From: Acidobacteriaceae bacterium
GTDB taxonomy: Bacteria > Acidobacteriota > Terriglobia > Terriglobales > Acidobacteriaceae
Direction of reading: 5' to 3'
Assembly (NCBI GenBank): GCA_003139095.1
Contig: PLHW01000026.1
Span: 107,233 to 171,232, forward strand
DNA length: 64,000 bases
Shown piece by piece: positions 32,392 through 32,862 of this stretch (position 1 is the stretch's first letter; the number at the start of each line of letters is the position of its first letter). The notes below the pieces were generated by a model. That model saw only the letters and a program-made list of their open reading frames with translations. It was not told where the DNA came from and searched no databases. The position numbers and the translations under genes were made by a program.

Positions 32392-32502
32392 GACATTCTC
32401 CGGGAAGGAAATTCGTGGCGTGGACGCCGAGTATAGGCCGCCGACCAATCAGTGTCAAATATCAGAGTGGGGATCTTTCTTTCCGAGTCGGGGAAGTTGG
32501 GC

Positions 32503-32530
32503 TTGACAATCTCGCGGTTGGGTTTACGAT
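32503..32530 (+). promoter_or_regulatory. Promoter of the structured RNA candidate
   Basis: TTGACA (32503-32508), a 16-nt spacer and TACGAT (32525-32530) would place the start of transcription near 32537. Confidence 0.55.
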
Positions 32531-32536
32531 GAAAGC

Positions 32537-32824
32537 ATCACCTCCGATCCCTTTCCGGATCGAATGGGCCGATAGCCAAGGAAACGTCACCGCTTCTTGG
32601 CTGGCGGCCCATTTTAATTTCCCCTTCGACTTGGCGCGAGGAGCTTTTATGGGTGCGGCGAGGCGTACATGCGCAAATCGTGACTACAAGTTGACGTGGG
32701 CGGGACAACCGCGTGCCACGGTTGCGGCACAATCAAAGCGTTCTCCGATTTCTGAAAAACGAGGCGGGAACATTCCTGGAAGCGGTCTGACGCGAGGCGT
32801 TCTCCCTCTCGTCAGACCTTTTTT
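32537..32824 (+). ncRNA. Putative structured non-coding RNA, ~290 nt
   Basis: The interval runs from a good promoter to a strong terminator and is antisense to nothing. It folds by eye into at least three hairpins: GATCC/GGATC near 32546-32561; a two-part stem GGGCCG+AGCCAAG (32566-32580) with CTTGGCT+CGGCCC (32596-32610) around a 2x2 internal loop; and CAACCG/CGGTTG (32706-32724). It is not tmRNA, RNase P, SRP or 6S RNA as far as conserved cores can be recognised. A small mRNA is the alternative, since an ATG at 32529 opens a frame of about 100 codons, but this has no Shine-Dalgarno and the ATG overlaps the -10. Confidence 0.4.
32784..32824 (+). terminator. Strong rho-independent terminator of the RNA candidate
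   Basis: GGTCTGACG (32784-32792) pairs with CGTCAGACC (32810-32818), with further GAG/CTC pairing inside, and is followed by six T. Confidence 0.85.
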
Positions 32825-32862
32825 GAAGAAATCGTAATTGTAGCGGCGGGGTTTTGCGCGGT

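Follow-up and report, generated by a model that had tools for sequence, protein, structure and literature searches.

The closest described systems come from the Rhizobiales, in which AbcR1 and AbcR2 are intergenic RNAs that act in trans and expose a pair of short C-rich motifs, one lying within a hairpin and the other in the stretch between hairpins, for base-pairing with target mRNAs, ribosome-binding regions among the sites (PMC5461406, PMC3712013); these motifs are 6 nt long (PMC5461406). The Rhizobiales CCUCCUCCC-loop RNAs (SmelA075/SmelA099) are anti-Shine-Dalgarno (anti-SD) RNAs with several repeated loops, and expose the anti-SD sequence on stems of drifting sequence (PMC3927594). For the phylum Acidobacteria, a 2022 survey counted only four annotated sRNAs (PMC9029176), and Acido-1 (RF01686) and Acido-Lenti-1 (RF01687) have been reported as candidate structured RNAs (PMC2864571).

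The locus described here lies in the window, a 64,000-nt stretch of DNA from an Acidobacteriaceae bacterium, and holds what is, with near certainty, a genuine RNA gene. The initial annotation had proposed a single element of ~320 nt (32503-32824) that ended in a strong U-tract terminator. DNA matches in relatives span ~32490 to ~32628, with similarity ending at ~32620-32628, and the 3' half of the proposed element was unmatched except for faint scattered pieces in a single genome from a different family. Across 82 homologues, information amounted to 0.02-0.09 bit/position from the first base past the 88-nt model. Given that conservation drops to background right after the core, the conserved unit consists of the promoter (32503-32530, plus strand) and an RNA of 84 nt (~32537-32621), without positions 32625-32824, and from these edges in DNA similarity and information we infer that the conserved transcript ends at its own hairpin and UUUUAAUUU near 32621 (Table 1). 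The interval 32503-32824 was rejected as one unit, conservation ending at ~32621. The U-tract terminator itself exists, as a hairpin with 14-bp arms followed by TTTTTT at 32784-32826 (plus strand), and is not conserved at that place in relatives; it could serve at most as a local back-up terminator in this genome. A stop there would yield a 290-nt read-through RNA. Past the stem of the conserved RNA, the T fraction in homologues was 1.00, 0.85, 0.85, and 0.52, then 0.82-0.87 three to four bases on, and the U-tail was weak in distant members.

Table 1. Parts of the RNA gene and its promoter, in window coordinates.
Feature	Position	Strand	Evidence or remark
-35 element TTGACA (CTTGAC in homologues)	32503..32508	+	1.0-1.7 bits/position at -35 to -30, 82 homologues
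-10 element TACGAT (consensus TAGCAT)	32525..32530	+	7 nt ahead of predicted start
Small RNA, ~84 nt	32537..32621	+	DNA homologues, covariance models, conservation edges
Predicted RNA start and predicted end	A32537; within UUUUAAUUU tail	+	
Exposed 5' tail AUCACCUCC	32537..32545	+	9 nt identical to 16S rRNA 3' tail (anti-SD)
Hairpin 1, CGAUCC-CUUUCC-GGAUCG (6 bp)	32545..32562	+	GACCC/GGGUC in distant members
Hairpin 2, long stem doubling as terminator	32563..32613	+	Stem sequence varies with compensation
Apical-loop motif GUCACCGCUUC (hairpin 2)	32586..32596	+	No variation among the 53 close homologues; CCGCU core or ACCUCCGCU in distant members
U-rich tail UUUUAAUUU	32612..32621	+	Predicted intrinsic terminator tail, possible Hfq site

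Other parts of the first description held up. The promoter, reported as near-consensus, is the sigma-70-like TTGACA-16-TACGAT (10/12 consensus matches), and it is conserved in 82 homologues, with CTTGAC at -35, GG at -16/-15, and TAGCAT at -10. The homologue promoters share this GG and a -10 element of TAGCAT/TACGAT, not TATAAT, which could be a feature of activator-dependent or regulated promoters. The RNA is indeed encoded opposite to both neighbouring genes; these lie on the minus strand, the upstream one coding for an exported protein of 393 aa with BNR/YCF48-like repeats and the downstream one for a receiver-like protein of 122 aa. Ahead of the BNR-repeat gene, a near-perfect promoter (TTGACA-17-TATACT, 11/12; 32430-32458, minus strand) stands back to back with the sRNA promoter. 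The stable hairpins were present as well, namely hairpin 1 and, within hairpin 2, the 6+7-bp stem with a 2x2 internal loop (GGGCCG-AT-AGCCAAG / CTTGGCT-GG-CGGCCC, 32566-32611).

The 85-nt core had a folding energy of -39.8 kcal/mol, versus -21.4 ± 3.2 for shuffles (z = -5.8), and the whole 290 nt gave z = -3.8. In an alignment of the 53 close homologues (A1), 99.6% of cells could pair, with a covariation score of 0.108 versus 0.073 ± 0.004 in sequences that are too similar to test covariation strongly. A divergent alignment of 31 sequences (A2) included nine added divergent members that lacked a match to the first model and that, in the atpF'-hflX gap, carried the promoter, a 5' (A)UCACC/ACCACC, a hairpin GACCC..GGGUC, and a long hairpin. 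Both sides had changed in 12 of the 21 pairs of A2, doubly changed cells numbered 57 versus 13.6 ± 3.0 after shuffling, the covariation score was 0.368 versus 0.197 ± 0.012 shuffled, and every slid register dropped to 27-49% paired. The two-hairpin structure is real. Thus, the gene combines what is expected of a trans-acting intergenic sRNA: a promoter of its own and a conserved end, both separate from its neighbours, and a structure with compensatory changes.

No match was obtained in the window with Rfam 15 at gathering thresholds, and at permissive thresholds the best score for the element was tfoR, with 15.1 bits versus a threshold of 70; none of 15 homologous loci matched up to E 1. Even with E relaxed to 1-10, Acido-1 and Acido-Lenti-1 gave no score for the element or for its homologues. 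The same search covered tmRNA, RNase P, SRP, and 6S without match, in line with the statement of the initial annotation that the locus resembled none of them, and its proposal of a structured, free-standing RNA is borne out by covariation, the lack of a conserved reading frame, and the absence of an Rfam match. We found no publication on this RNA in the open literature.

By DNA search alone, a match was found in 47 of 101 relatives, 45 of these 47 belonging to the window's own family. The covariance model R2, whose E-values are rough owing to short calibration, extended this to 341 of 397 sampled genomes of the order Terriglobales (336 of the own family, 5 of a second family), mostly with one copy per genome; the second matches listed were mostly the antisense image. 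R2 matches were absent from a few high-quality or complete genomes of the order, and a phylum-wide sample of 297 genomes gave only chance-level matches outside the order (E 0.003-0.007). Named carriers in one pattern scan were Candidatus Sulfotelmatobacter, Candidatus Angelobacter, and other Terriglobia. The second-family homologues (L160, L165) keep the structure and promoter and not the loop motif, and are probably genuine. The L160/L167 and L165 homologues lie upstream of a divergent glycine-zipper lipoprotein-like gene, not of atp. Two sense-strand copies were seen in one assembly (G002:C101:33427-33514 and G002:C93:624-711), and also in G845; these doubled copies may be genuine duplications or may reflect contamination (6% in G002). 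A phage origin was rejected, the core pattern being absent from 2.9 million viral contigs.

The usual site in relatives is between a divergent ATP synthase operon and convergent hflX-hfq genes. The divergent ATP synthase b' gene (atpF') lies upstream in 108 of 130 loci, 200-270 nt away, and convergent hflX is found downstream in 84 of 126 loci, not always adjacent (median distance 127 nt, upper quartile 878 nt). Past hflX, hfq follows in 24 of the 25 loci with hflX close and sufficient flank, and is usually two genes downstream of the RNA. A receiver-like gene frequently takes the place of hflX within the window's own genus, and the window's genome has the three parts on separate contigs: C28 (hflX-hfq), C60 (atpF'), and C9 (the RNA). 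The RNA sequence is intact in this genome though both neighbours are gone, and given that it is unchanged after both neighbourhood breaks, the RNA gene is autonomous, independent of its neighbours. Adjacency to hfq is no proof of Hfq binding, and the window's genome has the two separated. Nearly all relatives that were checked encode a canonical Hfq. One or two divergent Hfq-like genes accompany it in relatives and in the own genome, where the Hfq and Hfq-like loci are G000:C28:298563-298745, G000:C14:112311-112463, and G000:C47:100478-100642.

Neither this hfq/ATP-synthase neighbourhood and the near-universality within the family nor the anti-SD 5' end and the C-rich loop had been part of the initial annotation. 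The 5' tail AUCACCUCC is predicted to be unpaired, and its CACC is retained in 90 of 95 homologues. The loop of hairpin 2 carries GUCACCGC, invariant in A1, and many members keep CCGCU, not CCUCC, in this loop. Among divergent members the tail drifts to ACCACCCGG or AUUACCUAG, and because the loop reads CACCACCUCCGCU in those with the drifted ACCACCCGG tail, one or the other exposed site often retains an ACCUCC stretch. Summing the longest 16S-tail match over 22 chosen representatives gave 145, versus 92 for composition-preserving shuffles (500 shuffles, maximum 109), a sum that is to be taken as support and not as a probability given that the representatives are related to each other. The RNA therefore presents a segment complementary to the Shine-Dalgarno sequence that is predicted to be exposed.

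We consider, with moderate confidence, that the RNA is a trans-acting sRNA, probably Hfq-assisted, that would mask Shine-Dalgarno sequences via two C-rich modules. It would be made from the sigma-70-like promoter as a ~84-nt two-hairpin transcript, which Hfq, encoded nearby in relatives, would stabilise and present. Either module (the AUCACCUCC 5' tail, or the loop with GUCACCGC or, in distant members, ACCUCCGCU) could then pair with Shine-Dalgarno regions of the types GGAGGUGA and GCGGUGA, and such pairing, in competition with the 3' end of 16S rRNA, would reduce the translation of a set of mRNAs. The anti-SD mechanism as such is likewise moderately probable. A trans-acting role, offered at the outset alongside protein binding, is the best inference.

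Perfect sites for the 11-nt loop complement GAAGCGGTGAC were not clearly enriched over a reversed control in 23 genomes; they lay mainly inside coding frames, mostly in codons of E-A-V-T, and no conserved start-codon site was seen. Nine small groups of sites were common to two or three genomes, and we read them as shared coding sequence, not start-codon sites. With atpF', hflX, and hfq as targets, duplex energies were equal to or weaker than background.

The lack of start-codon targets for the loop among these 11-nt sites would suit a trans-acting RNA whose modules are not anti-SD but serve coding-region pairing, a non-Hfq RNA-binding protein, or the sponging of another sRNA, as would the retention of CCGCU rather than CCUCC in many loops. 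Given that the similarity of the exposed segments to the 16S tail exceeds what composition alone would give, we regard this as unlikely. Somewhat less likely still is a decoy that imitates the 16S rRNA 3' end and titrates its binding protein, the foremost candidate being Era, a ribosome-assembly GTPase that binds AUCACCUCCUUA. The first nine bases in the window's clade, AUCACCUCC, exactly match the beginning of the Era co-crystal RNA (PMC9032327), and the tail is predicted to be unpaired; however, the distant tails ACCACCCGG or AUUACCUAG, and an anti-SD core that can move to the loop, fit mRNA pairing better than a fixed protein site, and a decoy leaves the conserved loop unexplained. Similarly doubtful is a wider scope, in which the family-wide copy of the 16S 3' end at the RNA's 5' end would mark a global modulator of translation or ribosome assembly, not a regulator of few mRNAs, acting via bulk Shine-Dalgarno competition or Era titration and linked through its location to ATP synthase and Hfq, that is, to energy state and an RNA chaperone.

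It is very unlikely that the element acts only in cis, as a bidirectional hflX-hfq terminator or a leader that controls the ATP synthase operon. In most relatives it has the divergent atp operon on one side and the 3' end of the convergent hflX gene on the other, and hairpin 2 ends near hflX, both of which are consistent with such a role, but a dedicated own-strand promoter is conserved, the sense-strand model scores 99 bits versus 22 for the antisense, the RNA is intact where both neighbours are absent, as in the window, and a terminator has no need of a conserved loop and 5' tail. The antisense strand as the RNA was rejected on the same bit scores. Open frames do exist in the window (140 aa at 32415-32837 and 62 aa from an ATG at 32650), yet a short protein-coding gene is improbable in the extreme: the loop varies by indels of 1-4 nt, homologues have stops in all frames, and nothing is conserved past 32625, so that comparison of homologues already refutes a coding frame.

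Acidobacteria are among the commonest soil bacteria, and most of the sampled genomes of the order carry the RNA, whose compensatory changes extend across a broad span of relatives. Having predicted ends, defined modules, and a covariance model, it offers a testable entry into riboregulation in this phylum, and an anti-SD tail equal to the 16S 3' end together with a site beside hfq in relatives gives direct predictions for cultivated members.

Like AbcR1 and AbcR2, this RNA is intergenic and putatively trans-acting, with two short C-rich motifs that are predicted to be exposed. In contrast to them, it occurs in another phylum, has no Rfam match, forms two hairpins only, and has no tandem copy, and its motifs are CACCUCC and CACCGC versus CUCCCA and GUUCCC. 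With the CCUCCUCCC-loop anti-SD RNAs, to which we take CcsR-type RNAs to be related, it shares an apparently exposed anti-SD sequence and a stem of drifting sequence; unlike these RNAs with their several repeated loops, it has one anti-SD stretch at the 5' end and a different loop motif. By analogy, it would work most like the AbcR and CCUCC-loop sRNAs of Rhizobiales, with no sequence or model match to either, and it constitutes a new, previously uncatalogued RNA family of a known functional kind.
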